Shown here one piece after another: positions 28,795 to 47,122 of a stretch of 64,000 bases of DNA. The notes beneath the pieces are model-generated. The model did no database searches. It was not told the origin of the DNA and saw only the letters and a list, made by a program, of their open reading frames with translations. The position numbers and the translations under genes are program-made. This DNA comes from Actinokineospora bangkokensis (GTDB lineage Bacteria > Actinomycetota > Actinomycetes > Mycobacteriales > Pseudonocardiaceae). The stretch covers positions 124,001 through 188,000 of the forward strand of contig NZ_MKQR01000013.1 of the NCBI RefSeq assembly GCF_001940455.1. Reading direction: 5' to 3'. Within the stretch, counting starts at the first letter, position 1; each line of letters begins with the position of its first letter.

Positions 28795-28968
28795 GCGCCC
28801 ACTATCGCACCCGCGGGGCCCGGACCGGCCGTGAGCACAACGAACACAAGTACCGATAGGTCCGCAGGCGAGACAGCGCCCGACCGCCACGGCACCATGA
28901 CCTGCGGGACGGCCCCGTGACCGGGGTCACCCCCGCCCCACCCGCCGTCCGGCCCGATGGAGTGCCCG

Positions 28969-29955: not shown

Positions 29956-30488
29956 GCGCGCGGACCGAGACGGCGATCGACCAGCCGCAGCAGCGGCGGA
30001 GCTGGTGGCGGCAGCACTCCGAGCTGGGCGTGTGCGTCCTGCTGCTGGCCACCGGGGTCCTGGTGCTCGTCGACGCGCTGGGCATCCCCACCGACTTCAC
30101 CCAGCGCGGCCCGGTCGGGCCCAAGGCCGTCCCCGTGCTGGTGGGCGGCGCGCTGGTGCTGGTGGCGGGGCTGCTGGCGCTGGACGTGCTGCGCGGCGGC
30201 CGGGGCGAGGCCGAGGCGGGCGAGGACGTCGACCTCGACGCCCCGACCGACTGGCGCACCGTGCTCCTGCTCGCGGGCGCCTTCCTGCTCAACGCGGCGC
30301 TGATCGACACCGTCGGCTTCCCGCTCTCCTCGGCGCTGATGTTCTGGGGCGCGGCCTACGCGCTGGGCAGCCGCAACCCGGTGCGCGACCCGCTCATCGC
30401 CGCGGGGGTGTCGGTGCTGACGTGGGTGGCGTTCAACGAACTGCTCGGGGTCCCGCTGCCCGGCGGCCCGCTGATGGGGGTGCTGTGA
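29952..30488 (+). CDS. tctB: Tripartite tricarboxylate transporter small membrane subunit TctB
   Basis: 178 residues with four predicted helices (about 27-47, 62-80, 105-140 and 150-170), as usual for TctB. ATGA overlaps the tctC stop, and its TGATG junction overlaps the tctA start by one base. Confidence 0.9.
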
Positions 30489-32002
30489 TGGACGCGCTGA
30501 ACAACCTGGTGGCGGGCTTCGGCACCGCGCTGACCCCCGAGCACCTGCTCTTCGCCGCGATCGGCGTCCTGCTCGGCACCGCCATCGGCGTGCTGCCCGG
30601 CATCGGCCCGGCGATGGCGGTGGCGCTGCTGCTGCCGGTGACCTACGGGCTGGAGCCCACCGCCGCGTTCATCATGTTCGCGGGCATCTACTACGGCGGC
30701 ATGTTCGGCGGCTCGACCACCTCCATCCTGCTCAACACCCCCGGCGAGAGCGCGGCGGTGGTGGCGGCCATCGAGGGCAACCCGATGGCCCGGCGCGGCC
30801 GGGGCTCGCAGGCGCTGGCCGCGGCGGCCATCGGGCACTTCGTCGGCGGCATCATCGGCACCTCGCTGCTGGTGCTGCTGGCCCCGGTGGTGGCGTCGCT
30901 GGCGGTCGACATCGGCGCCCCGGACTACTTCGCCATCATGGTGCTGGCCTTCGTCGCGGTGACCTCGGTGCTCGGCTCCTCCCGCGTGCGCGGCTTCGCC
31001 TCGCTGCTCATCGGCCTGACCATCGGCCTGGTGGGCCTCGACGAGATGACCGGGCAGCAGCGGCTCACCTTCGGCTCGCTGCACCTGTCCGACGGCATCG
31101 ACGTGGTGGTCGTGGCGGTGGGCCTGTTCGCCGTCGGCGAGTCGCTGTGGGTGGCCGCGCACCTGCGCCAGAAGCAGTCCACCCCGATCCCGGTCGGGCG
31201 GCCGTGGCTGTCCCGCGAGGACCTGCGCCGCACCTGGAAGCCGTGGCTGCGCGGCCCGCTGATCGGGTTCCCGTTCGGCGCGATCCCCGCCGGTGGCGCG
31301 GAGATCCCGACCTTCCTGTCCTACGCCACCGAGCGACGGCTGTCCCGGCACAAGGACGAGTTCGGCAAGGGCGCCATCGAGGGCGTGGCGGGGCCGGAGG
31401 CGACCGCGAGCGCGTCGGCGGCGGGCACCCTGGTGTCGATGCTGACCCTGGGCCTGCCCACCACGGCGGTCGCGGCGGTGATGCTCGCGGCGTTCCAGCA
31501 GTACGGCATCCAGCCCGGCCCGCTGCTGTTCGAGCGCGAGTCGGCGCTGGTGTGGGGGCTGATCGCGTCGCTGTTCGTCGGCACCGTGCTGCTGCTGGTG
31601 ATCAACCTGCCGATGGCGCCGGTCTGGGCGAAGCTGCTGCGCATCCCCCGCCCCTACCTGTACGCGGGCATCCTGTTCTTCGCCAGCGTCGGCGCCTACG
31701 CGGTGGGCGGCGAGGTCGTGGACCTGGTCCTGCTGTTCATCATCGGGCTGATCGGGTTCGCCATGCGCCGCTACGGGCTGCCAGTGCTGCCCGCGGTGCT
31801 GGGCGTCATCCTCGGGCCGAGCGCCGAGCAGCAGATGCGCCGGGCGTTGCAGCTGTCCGACGGTTCGCTCACCGGGCTGGTGAACTCCCCGATGGCGGTG
31901 GTGGTGTACCTGGTCATCGCCGCTCTGCTCGCGTGGCCGCTGCTGCGCAAGCTGCGTTCGCCGCGGCAGGAGGCGCCGGAGCAGGAGCGCATCGACGCCT
32001 GA
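30488..32002 (+). CDS. tctA: Tripartite tricarboxylate transporter large membrane subunit TctA
   Basis: A 504-residue membrane protein with about 11-12 helices. The family signatures [20 protein letters not shown] and [20 protein letters not shown], plus a second [28 protein letters not shown] loop, are all present. It is the ion-coupled channel of the TctABC uptake system. It ends the operon at the hairpin at 32077. Confidence 0.94.
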
Positions 32003-32144: not shown

Positions 32145-33944
32145 CTAGAGCACGCCGGTGGGCACCTCCTGGGGTTGGGCGGCGGCGACCCACTCCCGCC
32201 GGGTGACCGCCCGGGTCATCTCCCGGACGTGCAGCGCGGCCCGCAGCCACGCCAGCGGGAACGCGTCGGTGGTGTCCTCGCGGACCCGGCCGAAGGCGTC
32301 GCGCTCCCGGTCGCGCGCGGTCGCGGCGAGGTCCGCGAGGACCGCCGCCGTGGCCGACATCCCGAGGGCGTCGAGCCGTGCGGTGTCGCGGGCCGAGCCG
32401 GTGATCGCCGCGACGGAGCGCCCGCCGAAGGCCACCCGGTGCACGGCGTTGGCCACCGGGCGCAGCGGCGCGGGCACCCGGTCGCGCTCTCCCGCCTGCC
32501 GCGGTGCCGACACCTCCTGCCGCGCGTCCTCGGTGCCCAGGTGACCGCGCTGCACCTGGTCCAGGCCGAGGTCGACGCGCCCGGCCAGCGCCGCGGGGAG
32601 GGCCAGCCCACCGGACGCGGCGATCGCGACAGCGGTGCCGGGCTGGTCGGGGCGCAGCCGGGCGATGAACCGGGTGCGCAGCCCGGGGGCACCGGCCAGC
32701 ACGCGCAGGTTGGCGCGGGCGCGCTCACCGAAGGCGATCAGGTCCACGTCGGCACCGTCGACGGTCACGCGCAGGGCGGGACCCGCGGGGCCGACGACCA
32801 CCGCGTCGAGGAACAGCAGGTCGTCGCCGCTCGGGCGCAGCCCGTCCGGCAGTTCGGCGTTGCGCGCCGCGCGCTCCACCTGCTCCGGCAGCGGCCGCTC
32901 CCACAGCGCGGTCAGGGGCGGCGCCGTCCAGTCCACCCCGCTCGCCGCGACCGCCCGCACCGACTTCCCCGCCCCCAGCCTGCGGTCCGGGGACGCGGTG
33001 CCACCGGAGAGCAGCAGCCCACCGCGGCCCAGTTCCCGCTGGCTCAACCCCGACTCGCCCAAGGCGACCGCGCCGTCCGCGGCAGCCGCGACGCGGGCCG
33101 GACCTCCGGGCACCACGGCCTGCACCGTCCACAGGACACCGTCCTCAGTGACCACGTGCGTGACGACGCCCGCGTACCCGGAGGACGCCACCACCGCCTC
33201 CGTGCACAGGCCGTAGAGGCGCAGCGAGCCGATGGGCAGGTACTCCCTGCGGGCCGTGCCGCGCAGCAGCGCCGGGTCGCCGGTGCCGGTGCGCAGGTCG
33301 TGGCAGAGCAGCATCAGCTCCAGCAGGTCGGCGGCCAGGACCTCGCGGTCGAACGTCGCCGCGCCCGCGCGGGCGTCGGCCAGCGCGGACGCCACCCGCA
33401 GCCCGCCCGCCGACGCGCGGTGCAGCCCGGCCACGCGGGCCGTGTGCACCGCGCGCAGCAGCTCGGCCCGCACCACGGCACCGCTGCCCGCGGCGCCCGC
33501 GCGCAGCACGGTCGCGCAGGCGGCCCACAGCCCCGCCGCGGCGGCCCGTTCGTCGGCGCGCACCTCGACGACCGGCGCCTCGGGCGGTGTCTCGGCCGGG
33601 GCCGTGTCCGCCACCCCGTCCGCGGGCTCCCCGGCCTCGGGTGCCTGCCCTGCCTCGGGTGGCTGCCCGATCTCGGCCGCGGCGACGGCGATGCCGCGGT
33701 GCAGGCACTTCGGCGCGAGCAGGCACCCGCACTCCAGGTCGTCGGCCGAGGTCAGCACGCCGTCGTGCAACACCCAGCGCAGGGTGGTGTCCTCGTCGAG
33801 GGTCGCGGTCGCCGCCTCGCCGTCGACCCGCACCGCCCAGGTCGCCGCGCGGTCGACCGCGGAGTCGACCCGCTTGCGCAACCGGGGCGGCAGGGCGTCC
33901 AGCACGTCCGCGACCACCGCGGGTGCCACCGGGGGCACGGTCAC
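32145..33944 (-). CDS. SWIM zinc-finger protein (YehQ-like)
   Basis: 599 residues. A SWIM motif CGCLLAPKCLH (CxC-x5-CxH) sits near residues 60-75 after an N-terminal helical region; the remainder is a long alpha/beta domain without a recognised enzyme motif. SWIM fingers bind DNA or protein. The GTG start has GGGAGGT seven bases ahead; it lies 46 bp after the VWA gene, as the last cistron of the five-gene operon. E. coli YehQ, in a MoxR/VWA neighbourhood, also has a SWIM finger. Confidence 0.82.
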   Translation of the reverse strand: MTVPPVAPAVVADVLDALPPRLRKRVDSAVDRAATWAVRVDGEAATATLDEDTTLRWVLHDGVLTSADDLECGCLLAPKCLHRGIAVAAAEIGQPPEAGQAPEAGEPADGVADTAPAETPPEAPVVEVRADERAAAAGLWAACATVLRAGAAGSGAVVRAELLRAVHTARVAGLHRASAGGLRVASALADARAGAATFDREVLAADLLELMLLCHDLRTGTGDPALLRGTARREYLPIGSLRLYGLCTEAVVASSGYAGVVTHVVTEDGVLWTVQAVVPGGPARVAAAADGAVALGESGLSQRELGRGGLLLSGGTASPDRRLGAGKSVRAVAASGVDWTAPPLTALWERPLPEQVERAARNAELPDGLRPSGDDLLFLDAVVVGPAGPALRVTVDGADVDLIAFGERARANLRVLAGAPGLRTRFIARLRPDQPGTAVAIAASGGLALPAALAGRVDLGLDQVQRGHLGTEDARQEVSAPRQAGERDRVPAPLRPVANAVHRVAFGGRSVAAITGSARDTARLDALGMSATAAVLADLAATARDRERDAFGRVREDTTDAFPLAWLRAALHVREMTRAVTRREWVAAAQPQEVPTGVL

Positions 33945-33990
33945 TGCGCCACCTCCCATCCCACCAGCACGAGCCCTGTCGCCACACCGG

Positions 33991-36900
33991 TCACCCGCGC
34001 ACCTTCTCCCCCACCCACCGGGCGAGCTCGGTCGGGCTGAGCGCCGCGACCGGCATCCCCGCCGCGACCAGCGCGCCCGCCACCGCCGCGGAGTACCGGG
34101 CGGCACCGGTGTCGTCGAGGCTCGCGCACCCGAGCACCGTCACCCCGGCGGTGACCAGCTCGCGGACCTGCGCGGTGAGCGCGGCGACCGGGCCGCCCTC
34201 CTCGAAGTCGCTGACCAGCACGACCATCGTCCGCTCGGGCACGGTGACCAGCGAGCGGGCGTGCCGCAGCGCGCCCGCGATGTGCGTGCCGCCGCCCACG
34301 CGCACCTCCAGCAGCAGCGACAGCGGGTCCCCGACGTGGTCGGACAGGTCGACGACCTCGGTGGAGAAGGCCAGGAAGTGCGTCGAGAGCGACGGCACCG
34401 CGGCGAAGACCGCCGCGGTGAGCGCCGACCACACCGTCGAGGCCTCCATCGACCCGGACACGTCGACCACCAGCACCAGCCGCCAGTCGCTCGCCGCGCG
34501 CCCGCGGGTCCGGAACACCGGGCGCTCCGGGACGACGACCACCCGGCCGTCCGCGCCGCGGCGGGCGGTGGCCAGGTTGGCGCGCAGGGTCCTGGGCAGG
34601 TCGAGCCGCCCGCCCGGACGCCGCGTGGGCGTGGGCAGCAGCAGCCCGGACAGCGCGGGGCGCACCCGGGTGGCCAACTGCGCGGTCAGCTCCCGCACCA
34701 GGCGCGCCACCAGCGGCCGCAGCCGGGCCAGCGCGGTCTCGGAGAGCCCACCGGCCAACGACAGCACCGTCCGCAGCAGCTCCACCGACGGGCGGACGCT
34801 GTCCGGGTCGATCTCCAGCGCCGCCTCGACCCGCCCGCCCTCGACCGCGGCGGCGAGGACTTCCTCGCGGACCCCGTCGCCGAACAGCTCGCGCAGCTCG
34901 TCGGACCACTCGCGCACGTCCGGGAACGGGCTCGACCGGTCGGCGCCGAGGTCGCCGCGCGCGGCGCCTTCCCCGCGCTCGCGGCCGTAGAGCTCGTCCA
35001 GCGCGGCCGCGTACCGGGCGCCGCCGGACGGGCGGTCGCCCCGGGTGCCGAGCACCAGCCGCCACCGGACCCCCGCAGGCAACCCGCCCGGGTTCCCCGC
35101 CGCAGCGGGCAGGGCCGCGGCACCGCCACCGCCCGCCGTCCACGCGCGGGGCGCGCCGAGTCCGTGCTCGGCGGCGACGGCGAGCGCGTCCTGCTCGGCG
35201 GCCAGCCACCCCGCCAGGTCGACGGGATCGGGCGCGCCCGCCACGTCGACCTTGCCGCCGGTGCGCTGCTCGACCACGTCGAGCACGCGGGCGCGCGCCG
35301 CCGGGCCGATGGTGGTGAACGCGCCGCGCAGGGCGGGCAGCCGTTCCAGGAAGTCCCCGTCCGGCAGCGCTTCCACGCGTTCGAGCAGCGGGCCGAGCGC
35401 GTCCGGGGCCTCCAGCAGCGACGACGCCGCGGCCAGCACGCCGGTGAGGCCGAGCCGGAGGGCGTCGCGGCGCTCGGGCGTGCTCGCGGAGTCCACCCAG
35501 GACGCCACCCGCCCACCCAGCTCGGCGGGCGGGGTGAGGCCGAGCAGCACCCTGGCCGCGCCCGCGGCACCGGCGACCAGCGGGCCGCCGCCCTCGACCA
35601 GCGCCCGCAGGGCGGCGGCGAGCCGGACGCCGGTGCCGCGGCTGTCGTGGCGCAGGCCCAGTTCGACGATCGCGCGGGCGTCGGCCGGGTCGGTCGAGCC
35701 CGCGAGCCCGTCGACCTGCGCGACCGCGGCGGCCTCCAGCTCCTCGACCAGCACGGGGTGCGCCGCCAGCACGTCCGCGCCCGTGCCGGGCAGGTGCCCG
35801 GCACGCAGCCGGTCGAGCAGGTCGAGCCCGGTGAGCAGCTGCGGCAGGGTGGCGGCCGACGGCAGCACGACCGCCGCGTCGTCGAGCAGGTGCCCCACCA
35901 CGTCGGGCAGCGCGCACGCCGCGGCGACGTGCAGGTCGGCCAGCACGTCGGCGGGGGTGTGCCCGGCGCCGGTGGCGCGCTCGGAGCGGCGGGAGAGCAA
36001 CCGCCCGCGCGCGGCCGCCTCCAGCGTCGTGCCCCACATCCCGGCCACCGGCAGGGTGGCGGCGGTGGCCGGTGTCCACCCCACCGTCCACCGGGTGCTG
36101 AGGGTGTCGCCGCCGCCGATGCCGGTGGTGCCGGTGTCCTCGCCGTAGGGGACGCCGAGGGCGTCCAGCCTGCGCAGCGCGACCTCCCGCCGCTGGTCGA
36201 GCGGCGAGCGCAGCGGGTCCAACCGCAGCTGCGCCCTCTCCCGCGAGGTCGGGCCCGGCAGGCGCAGGTCGTCGAGCAGGTCCTCCACCGCGGGGGCGAG
36301 CCCGGAGCGCGGGGTGCCCGGGGCGAGCACGCCCGTGCGGTGGCCCACCAGCACCTCCTGCGCCGCCCGCGCCACGACCCGGCCGCGGCCCAGCGGCTCA
36401 GCGTGGGTGAGCACGGTCTGCACCGCCTCGACGACCTCGCTGCGCCCCGGGGCGGGGATGCCGCGCAACCGGGCCAGGTCCACCGCCAGCCGCAGCGCTT
36501 CGAGCGCCTCGGCGGGCCCGGCCGGGTGGCCGAGGGCGCGCAACCGGGCGGACAGGGCGACGATGACCCGAGCGGCGGCGGCCTCCACCGCCGCCGGGTC
36601 CCCGCCGGCACCGAGCACCGCCTGCTGCCACTCGGGGTCGCGGATGCCCGCCGGGTACCCGGACCGCTCGTCGAGCAGCGCGAACCCGTAGGGCACCAAC
36701 GACGTCACCACCTGCGCGGCGGGCACCTGCTCGCGCGGCGCGTCCGGTCCGCGCAGCAGCGCCGCGGCGTGGAACGCGCCGACGACCGCGGCGCACCGGC
36801 GGCCGCCGACCGCGGCCACGGCGTGCCGCATCCACTCCTCGCGCCGCAGGTCGTGCGCGTCGACCCCGGCGCCGTCCGGGCCCGCCGCGTCGGTCCGCAG

Positions 36901-37431
36901 CGCCCACCCGACGTACAGCGCCGCCCGGCGCACGGCCTCCGGCGCCTGCCCCGGCGCGGCCGCCTCCACGAGGCGGTCCCACAGGTCGTCGCCCGCGCGC
37001 CCGGACACCGTGGCGCGCAAGGCGTCCGCCAGCGGCGACCCGTGCTCGCGCCCGCCCCCGCGCTCCCCGCCGCGCATCGCCATCGGCAGGTCGCACGGCA
37101 GCACCTCGACACCGTTGCGCGCCGCCCAGCGCACCGCCGCCAGCTCCGGGGAGAAGTCGGCGAACGGGTAGAACGCCACCCCGCCACCGTCGCGGTGGGC
37201 ACCGGAGAGCGCGACGGGCGCGGTGAGCGCCGGGTCGGCCAGGTGCGGCAGCCACCGACCCAGTTCCTCGGGCAGCTCCACGAGCAGCACCTCGGGGGCG
37301 GCGGCGTCGAGCAGGGCGGGCACCACCGCCGCCAGGGCGGGCGAGTGGTGCCGCACCCCGATCAGGTGCGGGGTGGTGTGGTGGACGAGGTCGTCCACCA
37401 CACCGGTGCCGGTCTCACGCGTCGAGGACAT
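33991..37431 (-). CDS. DUF5682-VWA fusion protein (YehM-YehP-like)
   Basis: 1,146 residues. The first two-thirds match DUF5682, beginning LIGVRHHSPALAAVVPALLD, with LLVELPEEL and AFYPFADFSPELAAVRWA. The last 200 or so residues are a von Willebrand A domain with a complete MIDAS DVSGSM (about residue 989) and VVLVSDFEEGG. In E. coli the equivalent parts are separate genes (yehM and yehP). The start overlaps the MoxR gene by 17 bp. MoxR ATPases typically act on VWA partners to load metals or remodel complexes; the substrate is unknown. Confidence 0.82.
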   Translation of the reverse strand: MSSTRETGTGVVDDLVHHTTPHLIGVRHHSPALAAVVPALLDAAAPEVLLVELPEELGRWLPHLADPALTAPVALSGAHRDGGGVAFYPFADFSPELAAVRWAARNGVEVLPCDLPMAMRGGERGGGREHGSPLADALRATVSGRAGDDLWDRLVEAAAPGQAPEAVRRAALYVGWALRTDAAGPDGAGVDAHDLRREEWMRHAVAAVGGRRCAAVVGAFHAAALLRGPDAPREQVPAAQVVTSLVPYGFALLDERSGYPAGIRDPEWQQAVLGAGGDPAAVEAAAARVIVALSARLRALGHPAGPAEALEALRLAVDLARLRGIPAPGRSEVVEAVQTVLTHAEPLGRGRVVARAAQEVLVGHRTGVLAPGTPRSGLAPAVEDLLDDLRLPGPTSRERAQLRLDPLRSPLDQRREVALRRLDALGVPYGEDTGTTGIGGGDTLSTRWTVGWTPATAATLPVAGMWGTTLEAAARGRLLSRRSERATGAGHTPADVLADLHVAAACALPDVVGHLLDDAAVVLPSAATLPQLLTGLDLLDRLRAGHLPGTGADVLAAHPVLVEELEAAAVAQVDGLAGSTDPADARAIVELGLRHDSRGTGVRLAAALRALVEGGGPLVAGAAGAARVLLGLTPPAELGGRVASWVDSASTPERRDALRLGLTGVLAAASSLLEAPDALGPLLERVEALPDGDFLERLPALRGAFTTIGPAARARVLDVVEQRTGGKVDVAGAPDPVDLAGWLAAEQDALAVAAEHGLGAPRAWTAGGGGAAALPAAAGNPGGLPAGVRWRLVLGTRGDRPSGGARYAAALDELYGRERGEGAARGDLGADRSSPFPDVREWSDELRELFGDGVREEVLAAAVEGGRVEAALEIDPDSVRPSVELLRTVLSLAGGLSETALARLRPLVARLVRELTAQLATRVRPALSGLLLPTPTRRPGGRLDLPRTLRANLATARRGADGRVVVVPERPVFRTRGRAASDWRLVLVVDVSGSMEASTVWSALTAAVFAAVPSLSTHFLAFSTEVVDLSDHVGDPLSLLLEVRVGGGTHIAGALRHARSLVTVPERTMVVLVSDFEEGGPVAALTAQVRELVTAGVTVLGCASLDDTGAARYSAAVAGALVAAGMPVAALSPTELARWVGEKVRG

Positions 37432-38575
37432 CGCGCAGTTCCCACAGCCGCCGCCAGGCGCGGGCGCCGCCCTCGGCGCGCCTGCGCACCGCCCCGTCCC
37501 AGTACCCCAGCAGCCGGGCCGCGTCGGCGGGGTCGTCCTTGCGCACCACGCCGAGCAGGTGCCCGGGCAGCAGCGACAGCGGGTCGCGGTCGCCGGGGAA
37601 GTACGCGTCGGCCAGCCCGATCGCGGTCGCCACCGCGACCGCCTCGGCGGTGCTCATCACCGTGGAGGGTCGCTCGACCGCCCAGCCCTCCTCCGACACC
37701 CCGTTGCGCAGGTCGCGGAAGGCGGTCACCAGCGCCTCCAGCACCACGTCGTCGACGGCGAACGGGGCCTCGACCCGCTCCAGCGCCGCCGTGGCCTGCC
37801 TGCGCACCAGCTCGGTCTCGGCGGCCAGGTCACCGATCGGGCCGACCGCCTCGAAGTTGAACCGGCGCTTGAGCGCCGCGGACATCTCCGACACGCCCCG
37901 GTCGCGCAGGTTCGCGGTGGCGATGACGGTGAAGCCGGGGGCGGCGTGCACGGTGGCCTCCGGCGTCCCGGCCAGCTCCGGCACCGAGATCCGCCGGTCG
38001 GACAGGATCGACACCAGCGCGTCCTGCACCTCCGGCAGGCAGCGGGTGACCTCCTCGACCCGCACCACGGCACCGGTGCGCATGGCCTGGAGCACCGGCG
38101 AGGGCACCAGCGCGCGCGGGCTCGGCCCCTCGGCCAGCAGCAGCGCGTAGTTCCAGCCGTAGCGCAACTGGTCCTCGGTGGTGCCCGCGGTGCCCTGCAC
38201 GGTGAGCTGGCTGCTGCCGGACACCGCGGCGGCCAGCAGCTCCGACAGCATCGACTTCGCCGTGCCCGGCTCACCGACGAGCAGCAGCCCGCGCTCCCCG
38301 GCCAGGGTCACCACGGCCCGCTCGACCAGGGCGCGGTCACCGACGAACTTCGGGGTGATCGCCAACCGCGACGGGAGGTCCGCCGCGGCCGCACCCTCGG
38401 GCAGGGGCAGGGCGTCGCCGCCGCTGCCCATGACGAAGGTGACCACCGCGCGCGGGGTCAGCCGCCAGCCGGGCGGGCGGCGGCCGGGGTCGAAGGCGGC
38501 CAGGAAGGCCAGTTCCCGGGCGTGGGCGTCCTCGGCGGGGTCGACCTGCCGGGCGGGGGTGGCGGTGGCGGTCAC
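37415..38575 (-). CDS. MoxR-family AAA+ ATPase (YehL-like)
   Basis: 386 residues. Walker A is GEPGTAKS (101-108), Walker B AVVRVEE (169-175), sensor-1 ATAN (219-222), and an arginine-finger region lies at LKRRF (about 235-239). The late half carries the AAA lid. GTG 38575 overlaps the giant-gene stop by 4 bp. It is the chaperone-like motor expected to act on the adjacent VWA protein. Confidence 0.92.
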   Translation of the reverse strand: MTATATPARQVDPAEDAHARELAFLAAFDPGRRPPGWRLTPRAVVTFVMGSGGDALPLPEGAAAADLPSRLAITPKFVGDRALVERAVVTLAGERGLLLVGEPGTAKSMLSELLAAAVSGSSQLTVQGTAGTTEDQLRYGWNYALLLAEGPSPRALVPSPVLQAMRTGAVVRVEEVTRCLPEVQDALVSILSDRRISVPELAGTPEATVHAAPGFTVIATANLRDRGVSEMSAALKRRFNFEAVGPIGDLAAETELVRRQATAALERVEAPFAVDDVVLEALVTAFRDLRNGVSEEGWAVERPSTVMSTAEAVAVATAIGLADAYFPGDRDPLSLLPGHLLGVVRKDDPADAARLLGYWDGAVRRRAEGGARAWRRLWELRDVLDA

Positions 38576-41500
38576 CGGCGTCCTCCGGTCGTGAGCTCCT
38601 CGTAGGCGGGGGCGTCGCCGTCGAGCACCCGCTGCCAGGCGCGGGTGAACAGCTCGGCGACGGTGCCGAGCGGGGCGATGACCCCGTCAGGGGTGTCGGT
38701 GAAGCCGAACAGCGGCGCCTTCCACCGCTCCAGCGGCAGGTGCGGGGCGCCCAGCGCCAGCCACCCGCCGGGCAGGAACAGCGACCGGCCCGCGCGGGCG
38801 CGCTTGGCCGAGAGCACCAGGTCGGTGGCCGCCAGCGCCGCCCGCGCCGCGCGCAGGCGGGCGGGCTTCCACCCGGTCCACCGCGCGGTGTTGGCGTCGG
38901 TGGGGTCGGCCAGGGCCAGCAGTTGCAGGTAGAGCACGGCCGCGTCGTCGTCGAGGCCGCAGCGCTGGGCGACCTCGGTGACCAGGTGCGGCACGGACAC
39001 CGACGGGTCCTGGTGGAACGCGGTCGGGTCCCCGTCCGGCGCCGGGGCCGCCGCGCAGGCCCGGGTGAGCCCGTCGGAGCGGATCAGCTCCAGCGCCCGC
39101 ACGACCTCCCGGTCGTAGGTGACCTCCATCAGCGCGGTCAGCAGCGGCAGGTCCGCCTCGCCCACGAGCCCGGGGTGCACCACGACCCGGCAGTAGACGT
39201 CGCTGTAGCCGATGACGTGCAACCACGGCCGCACCCGCAGCACGTCCCCGGCGGCGGGCGCGTCGATCCCGAGGACGCCGCACACCTCCGCGGCGCCGTT
39301 CCAGTGCCCGAGGTCGATCCCGAACTCCGGCGACGCGGTGCGGGCGCGCAGCAGCTCCAGCGCCTCCGGCAACCGCTCGCGCAGCGGCGACCCGGCGGGC
39401 AACCGCTGGGCCAGCCACAGCAGCACCCGGGGCAGGTCGAGGAACTCCCGGTGGCCGAACCCCTCCTGGTCGCGGACCTTCAGCTCGCCGCCGTCGAGGT
39501 GGGCGCGGGAGTCGCGGGTCAGCCACGGTGTCGCGGCCGGGTTGGCGATGCCCGCCAGGTACTGCCCGGAGCGGTCGGTGGCCAGCAGCTTCGCGCCGTC
39601 GACCAGCACGTCCTCGGGCACCGGGACGCGGCGGCCGTGCCGGGCCACCCACACCTCGGCCACCGCGGCCAGGTCCACCCCCGTCGTCCACAGCGCGGCC
39701 GGGTCGGTCGGCACGGCCGCGGCGAGCAGCGCGCGCCGGTCGTCGCCGCCCATCGCCTTGAACAGCTGCCGGGCGGCCTTGGCCGCGCCGCTGGACAGCC
39801 CGATCACCTTGCGCTCGGCCGCGGTGAGGTAGTTCGCGCCCCAGCTGTCCACCTCGGGCATGCCCGCCAGCAGCACGGCGGCGTCGGCGGTGCCCAGGCC
39901 GGTGGCCTCCGCCAGCTCCGCGGGGGCGCCGGGCACCCACGGCACCGGGCCGTGCTCGGCCAGCGCGGCGAGGAAGCGGTGCACGCCGGCGGCGTCCAGG
40001 CGCTCGCCGGGTTCGGCGGAGTCCACCAGCACCCACCCCTCGGGCAGCCGGAACTCGCCAGGGGTCACCGCGTACTGCACGCCGTGCAGGGCGTAGTGGT
40101 CACGCCGCCAGTGCTGCTCGAACACGGCCACGAACCCGCCGGGCACCGGGAAGACCCGGTCGATGTCCGCGCCCGACCGGTCCGGGGCGGTCACCGCGAC
40201 GGTGCGCCAGTGCGCGGAGGTGTCCAGCAGCCCGCTGTCGGCCACGGCCCGGAGCACGGCGACGAGGGCGTCGCGCTCGTCGTCCGGGGTGAGCGGCGAC
40301 GCGGCCCGGTACGCCACGGCGCCGAAGCGGCCCAGGAACCGGAACCAGTCGCGCACCCCCGACTCCGGCAGGCGCGTGGCGCGCTGCGGGTCCTGCGTCG
40401 CCGCGACCAGGGCAGCGGTCACCTCCGGCAGCGTTGTCCGGGCGCCCGCTCGGGAGTTGTGCGAGCGGTAGCCGCCGAACCAGCCCAGCGCGACCTCGAC
40501 GGCGCCCTCGGTGACGACCGGGCCCGCGTCGAGCAGGGTGGCGGCGTCGACGGACCGGGCGGCCGCCGCGATCGGCCCGAACGCGGCGTAGCCCGCGACC
40601 AGCCGCTGCGCCCGGCGGACCACCTCGACGACACCGGCGACGAGCGCGGAGTGGGTGAGCCCCGGCAGCGCGGCGGTGACCGCGGCGGCCAGCACCCCCG
40701 GCTCGCCGCGCACCAGCGACTCGTGCTCGGCGCGGTGCCCGCGGTTGGCCTCCTCCGCCGGTTCCGCGGCCGCCGCGGCGAGCAGGGCGCGCACGGCGTC
40801 GTCAGACACCGCGCGCAGGGCGGCGGACCCGGCCTCGTCGCGCGGGCGCAGCACGTGCCACCAGGCCAGCGGTGGCACGAGCGGGGTGCCCGCGGCGAAC
40901 TCCGGGTGCGCGTCGCCCGCGCTGATGGTGCCGTGCCGGGTGCCCTCCGCGTCGAGCAGGTTGAGGCCCCGGTAGCGCCGGGTCAGCACCAGCCGCGCGT
41001 CACCGGGCAGGGCGAGCACCCCGATGGGCTCGTCGCTGCCCTTGGGCAGCCGCGCCCGCCTGCCGTCGACGCCCTCGCCCAACCAGGACTCGTCCGGCTC
41101 CACCCGCACCCGCCAGCCGTGCAGGCCGTCGGCGGCGCCGAGCGGGCTCGCGGCCGTCGCCGGGGTGGCCGGGTGCAGGTAGCAGCCGGAGTGGTCCAAG
41201 CGGGCGCCGTCGGCGGCGAAGTCCTCCAGGAACCGCGGCAAGCTGGCCCGACCCCGCTCACCGGTGGCCGGGTCGACCTCCACCCACCGCCACTGCTCGC
41301 CGGTGTAGGCGCGGGTCCACAGGGTCGTGCCGTCGCTGTGCGCCTCCCCGCCGCTGGTGAACGCGGTGTCGCCCGGGTGCACCGCGCGCCCGCCCGACCA
41401 CCGCGCGCCGCCCGGCAGCGCGAGGGAGGGCTCATCGATGTCGCGGTGGTACCCGTACCCGGACGTGCTCGTGGTGAAGACGTCCTCCGGGGCGTTGCTC

Positions 41501-43428
41501 CAGTAGGCGCGCTCGCCCTCGCGGCCGGGCCAGCGCACCAGCAGAACGCCGTCGTACCAGTGGGCGCTGGGCGAGAAGCCCCACCCCCTGCGGTCGTCGG
41601 CGGGGATGCGGGCGGTGTGCTCGGCGAGCACGCCGTCCGGCCCGACCACGACGAACTGCTCACCGCGGCGCAGCACGACCGCGGGCCAGCCCTCGCCGCA
41701 GAAGGACACGTCCTCGTCCCTCGGCCCCGCGCCCGCGCGCAACCGGGCCACCGCCTCGTCGAGCGCGGGCCAGCCCAGCTCGTCGACCAGGCCGGTGCGC
41801 AGCGTGGCGCGCAGCGCGCCCGCCACGTCGGTGGCGGCGATGGTGGCCGCCGCCTCGGGGGCGTCGACGAAGGACTCCGCGTTGCGCACCACCGACAGCT
41901 CGTCGAGCTGGGTGTCCAGCACCGGCAGCCCGGTGCTGGTGACCGAGGCCGCCCGCGCGGTGATCCAGTGGCGCAGCGCGGTGCGCAGCCCCGGCACGGA
42001 CATCGCCGCCCGCACCGCCTCCGGGCCCATGCCCGCGTCCCCGGCGGTGCCGTTGGCGTAGGAGATGAAGCCCGCCGCCAGGCCGCCGACCACGTCCGGG
42101 GTGGCGGCCAGCGCCACCAGGTCGCGCCGACCCGGTTCCTCGTCGGCCAGCCAGGCGCGGATGTCGAGGTTGAGCCGCTGCCCGCTGTCGCGGCGCACGG
42201 GCACGCCCAGCGCCAGCAGCAGGTCCAGCAGGTCGACCTCGCTCTGCCGCCACCCGCGCAGCACCCGCACCTCGCGGCCGTCGGCGGCCAGCCGCGGGCC
42301 CATCCACTCGACCAGGGTGAGCAGCCGCTCAGACCGGGCCACCGCGCGCCAGCCGTTGGCCCGCGACTCCACCACCTGCGACAGCCACTCGGCGGGCAGG
42401 ACGGTGTCGCCCTCGCGCGGCACCGGCGCGGTGAGGGCGTCGGTGGCGCCGCACTCCTCAAGGATCCCCAGCCACGTCTCGACCGCCGCGGCCGAGTCCG
42501 GGACGAAGGTGAGCAGGTGCGCCCGGACCTGCTCGTCCGCGGTGGCCAGGCGCACCAGGGACGCCCGGTAGGCCTTCCAGAACGCCGCGCCCGCGCGGTT
42601 GACCGCGGTGCTGTCGAGGATCGCGCGCAGCAGCCGCTCGTCCTCGGCGCCCAGGTCGAGCCCCGCGGCCTTGGCCAGCCTGCGCAGGTCCTCCGGCATG
42701 CCGGTGTAGGGGGCCAGCCCGCCGCGGGTGCGCTCGACGCACAGGGTGCGGAACAGCTCGTGGGCGGCGACCGGGTCGTGCTTGCGCGCCAACCCCTTCG
42801 CGTGCGCGGACAGCGCCTTGGCCGTCAGCGCGCCCGCGAAGGCGAACTCCAGGAACACCTCGCGGGTGCGGTCCGGGTCGACCCGCAGGTCGTGCACCTC
42901 CTCGGCCTCGCGGGCCTTGCCGAACATCGTCGCGGCGAAGGTGGTGTTGCCGTGGTCGAGGAACGCGCGCCCGGCCTGCTCGTAGAAGGTCGGCAGGAAG
43001 TGCGGCGCCGAGCGGCCCAGCATCTCGCCGAGGGCGGTGAACCCGTCCTTGGCCGCGCCCGCGCGGGAGCGGGCCGTCCTGGCCAGCCGCTCGACCTCCT
43101 TGACCAGGGCGAGCGCGTGGTGGGCGTTGGCCGGGTCGTGGATCAGCGCCCAGGCCGGGAAGCCCAGCGCGCTGCGCCGCCCGGTGCCGACCGGCTCGGC
43201 GCTCTCCGGCGCGGCGAACCCCAGGTACTCGCAGGTGAGGTCCTCCGCGGCGCCGAGCACCTCGGGCACCAGCCGCACCACGACGCGGTCGTCGAGGGCC
43301 GGGTGGCGGTAGCGGCGGGCGGTGATGGTGTCGCGGTCGTCGGCCGCGGCAGCCGCCCCCGGCAGCACCGCGCCCGCGGCGATGAGGGCCGCGGAGTCGT
43401 CCTGGTGGTCGCGCGTCGTCCTGCTCAC
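38572..43428 (-). CDS. Giant protein of MoxR/VWA/SWIM operon, function unknown
   Basis: 1,618 residues, no recognised catalytic motif. The N-terminal 550 residues are alpha-helical and repeat-like. The middle (about 575-845) is rich in Gly/Trp/Tyr with recurring short strands (GEGWPAVVLRRGEQFVVVG, HWYDGVLLVRWPG), as in a beta-propeller. The rest is helical again, with FKAMGGDDRRALL and WLHVIGYSDVYCRVVV. There is no signal peptide or membrane helix. GTG 43428 overlaps the upstream DUF4132-like gene by 4 bp. Its size suggests a scaffold for the MoxR/VWA pair. An alternative reading is a diverged split DUF4132 protein. Confidence 0.75.
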   Translation of the reverse strand: MSRTTRDHQDDSAALIAAGAVLPGAAAAADDRDTITARRYRHPALDDRVVVRLVPEVLGAAEDLTCEYLGFAAPESAEPVGTGRRSALGFPAWALIHDPANAHHALALVKEVERLARTARSRAGAAKDGFTALGEMLGRSAPHFLPTFYEQAGRAFLDHGNTTFAATMFGKAREAEEVHDLRVDPDRTREVFLEFAFAGALTAKALSAHAKGLARKHDPVAAHELFRTLCVERTRGGLAPYTGMPEDLRRLAKAAGLDLGAEDERLLRAILDSTAVNRAGAAFWKAYRASLVRLATADEQVRAHLLTFVPDSAAAVETWLGILEECGATDALTAPVPREGDTVLPAEWLSQVVESRANGWRAVARSERLLTLVEWMGPRLAADGREVRVLRGWRQSEVDLLDLLLALGVPVRRDSGQRLNLDIRAWLADEEPGRRDLVALAATPDVVGGLAAGFISYANGTAGDAGMGPEAVRAAMSVPGLRTALRHWITARAASVTSTGLPVLDTQLDELSVVRNAESFVDAPEAAATIAATDVAGALRATLRTGLVDELGWPALDEAVARLRAGAGPRDEDVSFCGEGWPAVVLRRGEQFVVVGPDGVLAEHTARIPADDRRGWGFSPSAHWYDGVLLVRWPGREGERAYWSNAPEDVFTTSTSGYGYHRDIDEPSLALPGGARWSGGRAVHPGDTAFTSGGEAHSDGTTLWTRAYTGEQWRWVEVDPATGERGRASLPRFLEDFAADGARLDHSGCYLHPATPATAASPLGAADGLHGWRVRVEPDESWLGEGVDGRRARLPKGSDEPIGVLALPGDARLVLTRRYRGLNLLDAEGTRHGTISAGDAHPEFAAGTPLVPPLAWWHVLRPRDEAGSAALRAVSDDAVRALLAAAAAEPAEEANRGHRAEHESLVRGEPGVLAAAVTAALPGLTHSALVAGVVEVVRRAQRLVAGYAAFGPIAAAARSVDAATLLDAGPVVTEGAVEVALGWFGGYRSHNSRAGARTTLPEVTAALVAATQDPQRATRLPESGVRDWFRFLGRFGAVAYRAASPLTPDDERDALVAVLRAVADSGLLDTSAHWRTVAVTAPDRSGADIDRVFPVPGGFVAVFEQHWRRDHYALHGVQYAVTPGEFRLPEGWVLVDSAEPGERLDAAGVHRFLAALAEHGPVPWVPGAPAELAEATGLGTADAAVLLAGMPEVDSWGANYLTAAERKVIGLSSGAAKAARQLFKAMGGDDRRALLAAAVPTDPAALWTTGVDLAAVAEVWVARHGRRVPVPEDVLVDGAKLLATDRSGQYLAGIANPAATPWLTRDSRAHLDGGELKVRDQEGFGHREFLDLPRVLLWLAQRLPAGSPLRERLPEALELLRARTASPEFGIDLGHWNGAAEVCGVLGIDAPAAGDVLRVRPWLHVIGYSDVYCRVVVHPGLVGEADLPLLTALMEVTYDREVVRALELIRSDGLTRACAAAPAPDGDPTAFHQDPSVSVPHLVTEVAQRCGLDDDAAVLYLQLLALADPTDANTARWTGWKPARLRAARAALAATDLVLSAKRARAGRSLFLPGGWLALGAPHLPLERWKAPLFGFTDTPDGVIAPLGTVAELFTRAWQRVLDGDAPAYEELTTGGRR

Positions 43429-44279
43429 TGCTCCGCCGCCTTGTCCTCGATCTCCCGGCCGTCGTGCACCGCGGCCGCCATGCGCATGCCCTCCGACCAC
43501 GCCACCGGGCCCACCTCGGCCAGGGGCAGCGCGGTGCCGTCGGTGAGCGACCAGCGCAGGTCGCCGGTCCAGGTCTCCGCCTCCGGGTAGTCCCCGCCCA
43601 ACCAGAAGCGCGCCTCGACCTCGCGCCCGCCCTCGAACGCGGTGTGCACCGCGTCGCCCCCGCGCACCGGGTAGCCCAGGCTGCGGCACCGGCTGAGCGC
43701 GTGGGTCAGCTGGGCGAACTTGCCGCCCGCGAAGTCCTTGACCGCGCTGGTGCCCGCCGGGAACGAGGCGGGCTTGGCGAACGTGCGCCGGAACAGCTGC
43801 TGCACCCGCTGCTCCACGCCCAGCTCGGCGCCGAACTCGCGCAGCTCGTCGAGGTCGTCGAGCAGGACCGGGTGCGGGATCGTCACCACGTCCGCCGTCA
43901 ACCGCGCGGTGTCGCCGTCGAGGGTGACCACGCCGACGCCCCGGTCCTCGTCGGCCGCGCGCAGGAACCCGACCTCACCGCCCGCGGTGACGACGAGGTC
44001 GCGCAGCGCGCCCGACCACGCCGGGTCCGGCCACACCCGCACGAGCAGCGCGGTGGGCACCGGCAGCGAGCGCACCATCCAACCGTCCACGGCGGACAGG
44101 CACTCGGCGTCGTGGCGGTCGAGCCACTCCGCCAACTGGCGCAACCGCACCACCTGCGGGTCGTCCTTGAGCGACGCGGGGACCGAGGAGAGCTGCTTGC
44201 CCTTGCCGTTGCGGCACTGGACCTTCCGGTTCTCCCCGAGCCGCACCTGGTACCCGGTCCCGGCGTCGAGCCAGCCCAC
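43425..44279 (-). CDS. DUF4132-like protein, first gene of MoxR/VWA/SWIM operon
   Basis: 284 residues. GYQVRLGENRKVQCRNGKGK, QLSSVPASLKDDPQVVRLRQL and RLTADVVTIPHPVLLDDLDEL, then REFGAELGV, resemble the C-terminal DUF4132 domain found in E. coli YehI/MolR proteins. GTG 44279 has GGAGGA just upstream; longer in-frame starts would translate a 15-bp tandem repeat and lack such a site. It opens the operon that runs to 32145. The function of DUF4132 is unknown. Confidence 0.65.
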   Translation of the reverse strand: MGWLDAGTGYQVRLGENRKVQCRNGKGKQLSSVPASLKDDPQVVRLRQLAEWLDRHDAECLSAVDGWMVRSLPVPTALLVRVWPDPAWSGALRDLVVTAGGEVGFLRAADEDRGVGVVTLDGDTARLTADVVTIPHPVLLDDLDELREFGAELGVEQRVQQLFRRTFAKPASFPAGTSAVKDFAGGKFAQLTHALSRCRSLGYPVRGGDAVHTAFEGGREVEARFWLGGDYPEAETWTGDLRWSLTDGTALPLAEVGPVAWSEGMRMAAAVHDGREIEDKAAEQ

Positions 44280-44621
44280 GGTTCCTCCTGCGGGTGTTGG
44301 TGTTGCGGGTGTTGGTGTTGCGGGGTTGGTGGTGCGGACACTAGCGGCGCCCACCGACAGTTCCGGAACCGGTCGGTCGATCTTGCTCGGCACAAGCTCG
44401 GCCGACCCCGCGCACGGCCGGGCGGTCGCGGCCTGCGATCCCGGCCGGGTCGAGGTGGTGGTCCCAGGCGACCACTGCGGACACCGCGTGCGGGTTGGCC
44501 ACCTTGTCCAACAACGACAACCGCGGGGCGCGCGGCTTCGGCGCGGCAGGCGCTCGCGCGAGCACCCCTCCCCTCGCCACCGCTCAGGGTGGACAGCAGC
44601 CCTGGGGACCGACGGCCGCGG
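44280..44621. other. Non-coding interval upstream of the MoxR/VWA/SWIM operon, with tandem repeats
   Basis: A 15-bp unit (GCGGGTGTTGGTGTT) occurs twice at 44290-44304 and 44305-44319, with a degenerate third start at 44320, right before the ribosome site of the operon. The rest shows no gene I can support; a weak minus-strand open frame at 44341-44580 has no recognisable domain. The operon promoter should lie here. Confidence 0.5.
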
Positions 44622-45518
44622 TCAGGCGAGCAGCGCCGCGCGGTCGTCCACCACGGACCAGGCCGCGCGGACGTAGGCGGCGACGGCGGGGTTCTTGGTG
44701 CCCACCGGGTAGGCCAGCGAGACCGTGCTGGGCAGCAGACCGTCGACGGGCCGGTAGGCGATGTCGGGGCGCGGGGTGTGCACGGCGGTGGAGGCGGGCA
44801 CGAACGCCACCGCCCGGGTCAGCGCCACCAGTTCGAGCAGCTGGGACAGGTCGGCGGCCTCGGGCCCGGTCGGCAGCGGCCGGGTGGTGCCGTCGAGGCC
44901 GAGGGTGTGCCGCAGGCTGGTCGCGTCGCCCGCGGCCCACCGGGCGATCGGCTCACCGTCGAGGTCGGCGCGGACCAGCCGCACCCGCGCGGCGAGCCGG
45001 TGGTCGGCGGGCAGGGCGGCCACCCTCGGCTCGGTCAGCAGGTCCTCGAACTCGAACTCGGCGTCGTCGTCGACCGGGCGGCGCAGGAACGCCACGTCGG
45101 CGTCCCCGGCGCGCAGCCGCTGCGCCTGCTCCCCGCACCCGACCACCGAGACCTCCGGCGGCGGGAACCCGGCGTAGGCGGCGTGCACCGCGCGCAGCAG
45201 GGCGCCGTCGCTGCCCGGCTTCACCACCACCCGCAGCGGCCGGGTGGGCGCCGCGGCGGCGGCGACCCGCGTCTCCGCCACCCGCACCGCCGCCAACGCG
45301 GCCCGCGCGTCGGCCAGGAACACCGCGCCCGCCGGGGTGAGGGCGACCGCGCGCGTCGTGCGCTCCAGCAGGGTCACCCCGAGCCGGTCCTCCAGCTGCC
45401 GGATGGCCCGCGACAGGGCGGGCTGGGCCAGGTTGAGCCGCCGCGCGGCCCTGGTGAAGTTCAGGTCCTCGGCCACGGCGACGAAGTAGCGCAGGTCCCG
45501 CACCTCCAGGTGGCTCAT
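44622..45518 (-). CDS. LysR-family transcriptional regulator
   Basis: 298 residues; LysR HTH (DLRYFVAVAEDLNFTRAARRLNLAQPALSRAI) and effector domain. It is clearly paralogous to the regulator at 12981, including the C-terminal region. It is divergent from an SDR gene at 45589, repeating the LysR/SDR arrangement of the other locus. The intergenic region holds one GGTATC half-site but no clear palindrome. Confidence 0.91.
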   Translation of the reverse strand: MSHLEVRDLRYFVAVAEDLNFTRAARRLNLAQPALSRAIRQLEDRLGVTLLERTTRAVALTPAGAVFLADARAALAAVRVAETRVAAAAAPTRPLRVVVKPGSDGALLRAVHAAYAGFPPPEVSVVGCGEQAQRLRAGDADVAFLRRPVDDDAEFEFEDLLTEPRVAALPADHRLAARVRLVRADLDGEPIARWAAGDATSLRHTLGLDGTTRPLPTGPEAADLSQLLELVALTRAVAFVPASTAVHTPRPDIAYRPVDGLLPSTVSLAYPVGTKNPAVAAYVRAAWSVVDDRAALLA

Positions 45519-45588
45519 GCCGCCAGGGTATCGGTGCCAGGCCGAGCCGGTCCTTCACCGCGGCCGCCGCCGGGTGTCGGATGGGCCC

Positions 45589-46266
45589 ATGAACAGCACA
45601 CCGATCGCACTGGTCACCGGCGCGAACCGCGGCATCGGCCTGGAGGTCGCCGCGCAGCTGGCCACCGACCACGCAGTCCTGCTCGCCGCCCGCGACGCGC
45701 GCAAGGCCGAGCAGGCCGCCGCCGCGCTGGCCGGGCGCGGGGTCGAGGTCACCCCGCTGGTGCTCGACGTGACCTCCCCGGGGTCGATCGCCGCCGCGGC
45801 GGCCCGGGTCGACCGGCTCGACGTCCTGGTCAACAACGCCGCCGTGCACTACGACACCTGGCAGGGCGCCGTCGACGCCGACCTGGGTGTGGTCGTCGAG
45901 GCGCTGGAGACGAACCTGCTCGGGCCGTGGCGGGTGACCCAGGCGTTCCTGCCCGCCCTGCGCCAGGGCCGCGGCCGGGTCGTCAACGTCTCCAGCGAGG
46001 CGGGGTCGGTCGCCGCCTTCAGCCCCGGCGTGCCCGCCTACCGGGTCACCAAGACCGCGCTCAACACCCTGACCAGGCTCTTCGCCGCGGAGCTCGCCGA
46101 AGACGGGGTCTCGGTGCTGGCCGCGTGCCCGGGGTGGACGGCCACGGAGATGGGCGGCGAGGGCGGGCGGCCGGTCCCCGAGGGCGCCGCGAGCGTCGTG
46201 GCCGCCGTGCGCGCGGAGGGCGGATCCGGCGGGTTCTTCCGGGACGGCGCGCCGCTGGCCTGGTGA
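45589..46266 (+). CDS. SDR-family oxidoreductase
   Basis: A 225-residue short-chain dehydrogenase with TGANRGIG (10-17), NNAAVHYD, VVNVSSEAG and active-site YRVTK. It ends GGFFRDGAPLAW, matching the end of the SDR at 12173. It is probably a carbonyl reductase controlled by the divergent LysR. Confidence 0.9.
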   Translation: MNSTPIALVTGANRGIGLEVAAQLATDHAVLLAARDARKAEQAAAALAGRGVEVTPLVLDVTSPGSIAAAAARVDRLDVLVNNAAVHYDTWQGAVDADLGVVVEALETNLLGPWRVTQAFLPALRQGRGRVVNVSSEAGSVAAFSPGVPAYRVTKTALNTLTRLFAAELAEDGVSVLAACPGWTATEMGGEGGRPVPEGAASVVAAVRAEGGSGGFFRDGAPLAW

Positions 46267-46282
46267 GCCCCATACTGGGGCC

Positions 46283-47122
46283 GTGGTGAGCGAGTACCGG
46301 TTGGGACGACCCGCCGCGCCCCTGCGCGCGCACATCTCCCACTACGGCGGCTACCGCAGCGCGGGGGAGGCCCCGCAGCTGCACCGCGGCCTGCCCTCAC
46401 CGCACCTGACGCTGATCTTCACCCTGGACGACCCGCTGCTGGTGCTCCAGCACGTCGACCAGACCACCGCCCCCACCGGCTACCTGTCGATGATCGGCGG
46501 GCTGCACACCAGCCCGGCGCTGATCACCCACGACGGGTGGCAGTCGGGGGTGCAGGTCTCGCTGCACCCGCTGGGCGCCCGGGCGCTGCTCGGGCTCCCC
46601 GCGGGGGAGCTGGCGGGCTTGGACTTCGACGCCGAGGCCCTGCTGGGCCCGCTGGTCGGCCGGGTGCGCGAGCGCCTGCTGCTCGCGGGCACCTGGGCGC
46701 AGCGCTTCGCCGTCCTCGACGAGGTGTTCCTGGCCAGGCTGGACGAGCGCACCGCCCCCGCCCCCGAGGTGCGCCACGCCTGGCGGCGCATCCTGGGGGC
46801 GGGCGGGGACCTGCCGGTGGCCACCCTCGCCGAGGAGGTGGGGTGGAGCGCGCGTCACCTGACCGGGCGGTTCACCACCGAGCTGGGCCTGTCGCCGAAG
46901 GTGGCCGCGCGGGTGGTCCGCTTCGACCGGGCGCGCCGCTCGCTGGTGCTGCGCCGGGGCACGATCGCCGAGGCCGCGGCCGCGCACGGCTACTACGACC
47001 AGTCCCACCTGGTGCGCGACTTCCGGGCGTTCGCGGGCTGCACCCCGACGACCTGGCTGGCCGAGGAGTTCCGAATCGTCCAAGCCCCGCTGGCCCAGCA
47101 GGCGGCAGGATCACCGGCATGA
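46283..47122 (+). CDS. AraC-family transcriptional regulator
   Basis: 279 residues. A DUF6597-like N-terminal sensor domain (HISHYGGYRSAGEAPQLHRGLPSPHLTLIF) is followed by a C-terminal AraC double HTH (VATLAEEVGWSARHLTGRFTTELGLSPK..ARVVRFDRAR). GTG 46283 is 16 bp after the SDR stop, and its end overlaps the VOC gene (ATGA). It probably regulates its downstream partner. Confidence 0.9.
   Translation: MVSEYRLGRPAAPLRAHISHYGGYRSAGEAPQLHRGLPSPHLTLIFTLDDPLLVLQHVDQTTAPTGYLSMIGGLHTSPALITHDGWQSGVQVSLHPLGARALLGLPAGELAGLDFDAEALLGPLVGRVRERLLLAGTWAQRFAVLDEVFLARLDERTAPAPEVRHAWRRILGAGGDLPVATLAEEVGWSARHLTGRFTTELGLSPKVAARVVRFDRARRSLVLRRGTIAEAAAAHGYYDQSHLVRDFRAFAGCTPTTWLAEEFRIVQAPLAQQAAGSPA

Follow-up and report, generated by a model that had tools for sequence, protein, structure and literature searches.

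The window considered here, a 64,000-nucleotide stretch of contig NZ_MKQR01000013.1 within the 7.45-Mb genome of Actinokineospora bangkokensis, contains five consecutive minus-strand genes, among them one for a MoxR AAA+ ATPase. In the order of transcription, these genes encode a small DUF4132 protein of 284 aa (43425..44279; Pfam PF13569, E = 2e-28), a giant protein of 1618 aa read from a GTG at 43428 (38572..43428) that belongs to no Pfam or NCBIfam family, a MoxR ATPase of the YehL type (37415..38575; Pfam AAA_5, E = 1e-36), a DUF5682-VWA_CoxE fusion (33991..37431; Pfam E = 3e-192 and 2e-61, respectively) and a SWIM-motif protein of 599 aa (32145..33944). Consecutive open reading frames (ORFs) overlap by 4, 4 and 17 bp, followed by a gap of 46 bp, exactly as a preliminary description of this DNA had stated. 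A promoter of the PafBC/RecA-NDp type (TGTCGGTG-N8-TAGTGT) is predicted at 44338..44359 on the same strand, 58 bp ahead of the GTG (44279) at which the first gene starts. With moderate confidence, we read the operon as a machine of the YehL/MoxR type that remodels proteins and is induced by DNA damage.

The DUF5682 and VWA_CoxE matches cover residues 37-890 and 919-1140 of one 1146-residue polypeptide, and because both Pfam matches fall on the same chain, the fusion proposed in the preliminary description is real. In the MoxR protein, the Walker A motif is GEPGTAKS and the Walker B motif VRVEEV; the R, E and E of the R-x-E-E pattern are kept in all 37 aligned MoxR rows, including E. coli YehL, and this pattern is, as judged from the alignment, a signature that these MoxR proteins share. 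The VWA residues of the metal-ion-dependent adhesion site (MIDAS; D, S, S, T, D) are similarly conserved, with D/S/S/D in 37 of 37 rows and T in 36. The SWIM protein has no Pfam or NCBIfam match, Pfam SWIM included, and was assigned by its CxC-n-CxH motif (CGCLLAPKCLH), which is kept in all 15 loci of the window's architecture first compared (the window and 14 others); among named relatives, each of the 69 SWIM-protein matches has it too. Profile comparison with hhalign gave a weak match between this protein and the YehQ set (E = 4e-5), and a match between the small DUF4132 protein and the YehI set (E = 1.6e-5).

When genome contigs were searched with the giant protein, 409 stretches were confirmed, the best 80 of which, all actinobacterial, were analysed. 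All five genes lie on one strand and in identical order in 66 of these 80; thus, the conserved multi-gene machine that the preliminary description had suggested was upheld by the neighbourhood comparison across actinobacteria. Ten of the other 14 loci are cut by contig ends, two (L089 and L092) have no DUF4132 gene in cis, and two (L088 and L090) are DUF4132-giant pairs without the core. DUF5682 and VWA are fused in 69 of the 76 loci having either match, and the remaining seven are cut. The pairwise-identity matrices of the five proteins correlate closely (r 0.956-0.981; 66 loci and the window), although common species descent contributes to this value. Moreover, the giant and DUF4132 co-occur: in a set of 22 genomes, 16 of them from the genus and six chosen as positives, both are found in the same 15 and neither in the other seven. 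Within the genus, nine of the 16 genomes hold the giant, and the agreement with DUF4132 would arise by chance with a probability of about 9e-5, if the genomes are independent. In four of the 15 genomes with both, the main operon lacks DUF4132, but a DUF4132 gene is found beside a second giant elsewhere in the genome (G004:C3:233391, G005:C1:6850163, G011:C4:252896 and G015:C14:31609); these pairs, like L088 and L090, lie away from the MoxR core. It is virtually certain, as far as gene order and sequence covariation can tell, that the five genes constitute one co-inherited unit.

The regulation of this unit is indicated by its promoter. PafBC activates transcription via RecA-NDp promoters (PMC6789036). 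In a scan with stress-regulon motifs, the sequence TTGTCRGTG-N8-TANNNT was found in 35 of 77 upstream regions and never in shuffled ones, and the site at 44338-44359 is the sole match with at most one mismatch to this longer pattern in the 64 kb of the window, where 0.01 would be expected. We take these letters to be the PafBC/RecA-NDp motif. Within 250 bp before the DUF4132 gene, the strict form TGTCRGTG-N8-TANNNT occurs in 41 of 76 relatives, the intermediate form TGTCVG-N10-TANNNT in 68 and the loose form TGTC-N12-TANNNT in 75, as opposed to 0, 10 and 17 times elsewhere in the relatives' loci (3.5 Mb, both strands); the loose form was also found in 1 of 1450 random windows. The TGTC motif precedes the giant gene in 2 of 79 loci, exactly those (L089 and L092) in which DUF4132 is absent and the giant comes first, and it does not precede the inner genes (MoxR, 0/77; DUF5682, 0/69; SWIM, 0/69). 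A scan of the window region for sigma-70-type promoters returned none.

The strict form occurs at 29 sites in the entire genome, and the reversed pattern at none. Two of these sites precede the two MoxR operons, namely that of the window (C13, L219) and one with a WGR-DUF4132 leader (C25). Eight precede repair or proteasome genes, which by Pfam include DNA polymerase I, NAD ligase, UvrA, an exonuclease with GIY-YIG, a PD-(D/E)XK nuclease and the proteasomal ATPase, and two of which probably encode, by our reading, RadA and Mfd. Six others lie before genes for PhoH, GyrI-like, MOSC, DUF4240, YbaB and ABC exporter proteins, which are candidate members of a damage regulon. These assignments come from Pfam searches of 20 ORFs downstream of the sites (L202-L230), five of which have no family and one of which (L230) may be in the wrong frame; at eight of the 29 sites there was no clear ORF or the ORF was not part of the scan. 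PafB/PafC-type genes (HTH_PafC+WYL+WCX and WYL+WCX), the Pup ligase and a proteasome subunit are encoded within one 20-kb stretch.

The motif might instead be an ordinary operon promoter, inherited by all relatives and unrelated to PafBC, since TANNNT resembles a -10 element, the orthologues are of common descent and the letters of the motif are our assumption. Such a promoter would hardly account for the occurrence of the strict form in 41 of 76 promoter regions and nowhere else in 3.5 Mb on either strand, or for the repair and proteasome genes downstream of 8 of the 29 genomic sites. Furthermore, unrelated leader genes of the two other operon types described below (B and C) carry the motif: its loose form is found before the SWIM gene in 6 of 12 type B loci, it is clear in four of seven actinobacterial type C leaders, and in L062 a PafBC-like motif precedes each of three tandem copies. 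A looser variant lies near the operon front in L060 and perhaps in L055; a motif between tandem copies without a clear gene in L057 was not counted, and L068 is cut by a contig end. We consider an ordinary promoter very unlikely, and DNA-damage induction of the operon, as predicted from the motif, very probable.

A wider comparison indicates that the core of MoxR, DUF5682, VWA and SWIM recurs with an exchanged large partner. From 62 match rows in 37 genomes, 34 wider regions were chosen, and 35 DUF5682 loci were sorted by hand into three architectures. In type A (the window and 14 others), the order giant-MoxR-DUF5682/VWA-SWIM is found in 15 of 15 loci, with DUF4132 in front in nine and either absent in cis or outside the analysed stretch in six. 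Type B (12 loci) has the order SWIM-DUF5691-MoxR-DUF5682-VWA, with DUF5691 detected by phmmer in 12, the SWIM motif in 11 and an adjacent VWA gene in 11. Type C (8/8) is YehI-like-MoxR-DUF5682-VWA-SWIM and includes the E. coli cluster and L035, which is the second MoxR operon of A. bangkokensis; by Pfam, L035 contains both DUF4132 and WGR, whereas in E. coli the former is detected in YehI and the latter in yehF. The correspondence that the preliminary description had drawn to E. coli yehL (MoxR), yehM (DUF5682), yehP (VWA), yehQ (SWIM) and DUF4132 is thus borne out. Tandem copies are seen for both large partners (L045, L047 and L086; L056, L057 and L062). Some loci stand apart from this scheme. 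L066 and L067 are VWA-MoxR loci with a distant or weak DUF5682 match, perhaps a fourth type, and L067 has one PafBC-like site upstream; in Allorhizobium (L200, 10294-14283), the DUF4132 gene lies between DUF5682 and VWA and not before MoxR; and on an Iodobacter plasmid (L197), an E. coli-type operon adjoins a type I restriction system and transposases.

Searches with the giant protein of type A retrieved no PDB chain at E 1 and no Pfam family consistently; its ends (about 50-250 and 1500-1550) are conserved and its middle is more variable. When the whole protein and five pieces of it were compared by hhalign with the YehI, YehQ, DUF4132, SWIM, MoxR and DUF5682 sets, no relationship was convincing (lowest P 0.022). 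A beta-propeller middle is not claimed either, as there is just a dip in helix propensity near 650-850. In L045 (9466-11738), the giant copy adjoining MoxR is split over two frames, i.e., it is a broken copy in a tandem array. The match to YehI noted in the preliminary description stands for DUF4132, which is found in the small neighbouring protein, but not for the giant, which has no detectable homology to the YehI set (hhalign P 0.16). The giant thus replaces YehI and is not detectably related to it. The window operon has a MoxR gene beside DUF5682, VWA and SWIM genes and the R-x-E-E form of Walker B, as YehL-type operons do; because it has no large YehI-like DUF4132 partner, it is regarded as a variant of that operon.

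Damage regulation of related operons has been reported in other clades. In Deinococcus deserti, the operon Deide_18730-18690 (ddrTUVWX) has a radiation/desiccation response motif (RDRM) site and shows IrrE-dependent induction by radiation; its first gene encodes a SWIM protein, 18710 a MoxR-like protein and 18690 a VWA protein, and four of the five genes appear in a table of the most radiation-induced genes (PMC5552922, PMC2669436). A plasmid of D. taeanensis carries SWIM-DUF5691-AAA-(small ORF)-DUF5682-VWA, with an RDRM-like sequence (two mismatches) 20 bases before the SWIM gene. By analogy with this plasmid, ddrTUVWX seems to be of the DUF5691 type, and ddrU and ddrW would encode DUF5691 and DUF5682. 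The DUF4132 protein DRA0166 of D. radiodurans is upregulated with mitomycin C in an IrrE-dependent manner (PMC8533742), and published lists of SOS or LexA-regulated genes include molR of E. coli (PMC3978071, PMC11039860). In E. coli, the WGR gene yehF opens the same-strand run to yehQ. What we take to be the LexA site of molR has an exact match nine bases ahead of this gene (L034:1450-1465), although L034 contains no match to the strict E. coli LexA consensus. The 141-base stretch with this site is present in 5358 of 5426 E. coli genomes and yehM in 5284. In E. coli K-12 (L034, 1475-5270), yehF (WGR) and the pseudogene yehH, both similar to yehI, lie behind the LexA site, and two of three other listed genomes annotate a DUF4132 protein at this promoter stretch. 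Given the PafBC motif, the induction of ddrTUVWX and the LexA site of E. coli, a single machine seems to be under the control of three damage regulators.

The surroundings of the operon bear on a different explanation. None of seven flank ORFs of the window was found in 94 other loci; for sets of three upstream ORFs, 34 of 68 loci share none with another, whereas nine Streptomyces loci share theirs with eight. The giant is present in 7 of 296 genomes of the phylum. Since flanks are mostly not common and presence is patchy, the operon is an accessory unit in varied places. In the window, tripartite tricarboxylate transporter genes (TctB, TctA) point towards the operon from downstream (28917-32002), and the upstream side (44622-47122) is occupied by LysR, short-chain dehydrogenase and AraC-type genes. 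Within this context, the operon could be an anti-phage or abortive system, in which damage from infection would induce the machine, the giant and DUF4132 would recognise phage products and DUF5682 would be the effector. The patchy presence (the giant in 9 of 16 genomes of the genus), the diverged tandem giants, the changing flanks and copies on plasmid records, one of them beside a type I restriction system, are compatible with such a role. However, PADLOC returned for the five proteins a single weak match, of MoxR to a type II restriction model (E = 0.0016); the Pfam-matched flanks of the window are metabolic or regulatory (transporter, regulator/dehydrogenase); the presence of yehM in almost all E. 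coli genomes is unusual for a defence locus; and a phage collection has one matching record, covering the VWA part alone. An anti-phage role is unlikely. Of the stress or conflict response envisaged in the preliminary description, the stress part is retained and narrowed to DNA damage by the promoter motif and the Deinococcus data (PMC5552922), whereas the conflict part is not supported.

The DUF5682 domain is a candidate enzyme. Fifteen residues (R27, H28, H29, P31, E52, E96, D114, W151, E156, R179, R197, E198, M201, G218 and H221) are invariant in every one of the 103 rows of an alignment that spans types A, B and C, although not all rows are independent, as some genomes appear twice (e.g., L039/L078). 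By a strict motif pattern, 46 of 68 DUF5682 sequences deviate, and the alignment places the changes solely beside invariant residues. The order of the blocks (G-x-R-H-H, E, R-E-x-x-M, G-x-x-H) is reminiscent of the Tiki/TraB/EreA/ChaN enzymes, in which, on the features generally ascribed to Tiki proteins, the blocks G-x-x-H, E, R-[DE]-x-x-M and H follow in the same order; no clearly significant sequence match connects the two groups. In an hhalign comparison with 29 EreA-family sequences (EreA locus L163, with a stop, was dropped), the motif blocks aligned in order. After column permutation, the observed score was reached in 3 of 400 cases and the number of conserved-residue matches in 0 of 400; with a smaller profile, each was reached in 1 of 200. 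Matches of the catalytic part to PDB chains were dismissed as repeat-protein artefacts. The H, E, D and R invariants in Tiki/EreA order suggest that DUF5682 is a hydrolase, possibly a peptidase, and we incline to the view that it is Tiki-like.

Such a machine might work as follows. DNA damage would lead PafBC to activate the promoter at 44338-44359, a step that the sequence supports. The MoxR protein would be an ATP-driven ring that docks on VWA, as in RavA-ViaA-type pairs; a MoxR-VWA motor is likely by this analogy. With VWA and DUF5682 joined in one polypeptide, the motor would be expected either to act on the DUF5682 domain itself or to feed clients to it. The giant and DUF4132, whose position is filled elsewhere by DUF4132/WGR or DUF5691 proteins, might recognise the client or damaged nucleoprotein, and the SWIM protein might be a zinc-dependent adaptor. 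Several features of the large partner fit a reader of the client or the damage: its position, its swapping, its tandem copies and the contrast between conserved ends and a more variable middle. A WGR domain, as known from PARP proteins, suggests DNA ends, which applies to type C. A client that is a damage-associated protein or nucleoprotein is conceivable, but we would not rely on it. Damage-induced remodelling or proteolysis of damage-associated proteins is favoured, and the client is a guess. In the fullest version of this reading, which we regard as doubtful, the MoxR/VWA motor would clear damaged DNA of bound proteins (stalled or cross-linked complexes) and hand them over to DUF5682 as a protease of the Tiki fold. 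Interchangeable readers of DNA ends or clients (WGR-DUF4132, DUF5691, or giant and DUF4132) would serve the motor, and its control would have been wired up separately, with LexA in charge in E. coli, IrrE/DdrO in Deinococcus and PafBC in Actinobacteria. If true, this would be a widespread, hitherto unrecognised arm of the bacterial DNA-damage response.

MoxR-VWA pairs also raise the possibility of a maturation chaperone for a single enzyme, acting by metal insertion or cofactor loading after the models of NorQ-NorD, CbbQ-CbbO and CoxD-CoxE; the enzyme to be matured would be DUF5682 or another protein. A chaperone-like role in maturing particular complexes has been suggested for MoxR ATPases with VWA cofactors (PMC3893208); VWA_CoxE is matched at E = 2e-61, its MIDAS residues are intact and the old name MolR suggested molybdate. 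Nonetheless, no metalloenzyme family was found in 10 scanned flank ORFs of the window, damage promoters in three clades would be unexpected, and D. radiodurans moeA/moeB did not respond together with the DUF4132 gene (PMC8533742). We therefore consider a maturation chaperone quite unlikely.

Several observations nevertheless weigh against a damage-induced machine with a hydrolase. The spelling of the PafBC motif is presumed; half of the type B loci and three of the seven actinobacterial type C leaders lack a clear motif; and there is no LexA box (GAAC-N4-GTTC) in the window. Exact matches to this box are scattered in some relatives. Taken by itself, the D. taeanensis RDRM-like site is weak, as 1.7 matches with up to three mismatches are expected in 17 kb. 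An SOS box (GTTC-N7-GTTC) before the operon was found in none of seven alphaproteobacterial loci; therefore, either damage control does not hold for every operon of this kind or another regulator is at work there. As to DUF5682, the hhalign comparison with EreA gave P 0.046, ChaN (PF04187, Tiki superfamily) matched 1 of 32 DUF5682 proteins (E = 0.027) and none at DUF5682 loci in a search of 61 genomes, and there was no useful PDB chain match.

Seven MoxR subfamilies are distinguished, YehL among them (PMC3893208), and no statement of what its operon does was found in the literature searched. For Deinococcus, the MoxR and VWA proteins have already been proposed as a chaperone pair, and the spread of the operon has been noted (PMC2669436). 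In the open-access literature searched, DUF5682 is not named and DUF4132 is named in three papers, and no publication was found that joins the yeh, ddrTUVWX and actinobacterial giant operons; earlier work may exist in subscription journals. What is new here is the predicted PafBC-type DNA-damage promoter 58 bp before the operon. Seeing the three operons as one machine under three unrelated damage regulators replaces 'unknown function' by a testable role and singles out DUF5682, with its named residues, as a candidate enzyme.

The machine can be compared with known systems. MoxR-vWA ternary conflict systems (PMC7159879) share with it a MoxR and vWA core with an exchangeable third part. In the window operon, Pfam (E 0.01) detected no VMAP, iSTAND, FtsH or vWA-fused beta-propeller; bpMoxR scored 21.8 bits, under the cut-off of 27, and VWA ends at residue 1140 of 1146. 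The main text of that paper, taken by itself, does not mention yeh, SWIM, DUF4132 or DUF5682. In a jumbo-phage MoxR-vWA pair (PMC7824862), vWA is fused to a metallopeptidase, much as VWA is fused here to a predicted hydrolase, although the fused domain is different and the setting is virion assembly. Deinococcus ddrTUVWX, like type B, has SWIM first, a MoxR-like protein third and VWA last; it differs from the window in its IrrE/DdrO regulation and in probably having DUF5691 instead of a giant with DUF4132. The E. coli yehF/yehH-yehI-yehK-yehL-yehM-yehP-yehQ cluster (molR region) contains MoxR, DUF5682, VWA, SWIM and DUF4132, as does the window, on one strand and with a large protein upstream of MoxR. 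However, its DUF5682 and VWA are separate genes, whereas those of the window are fused; its DUF4132 lies at the end of a large protein, with WGR in yehF or its counterpart and no giant, whereas the window has a giant and a small DUF4132 protein; and it carries a LexA site where the window carries a PafBC motif.

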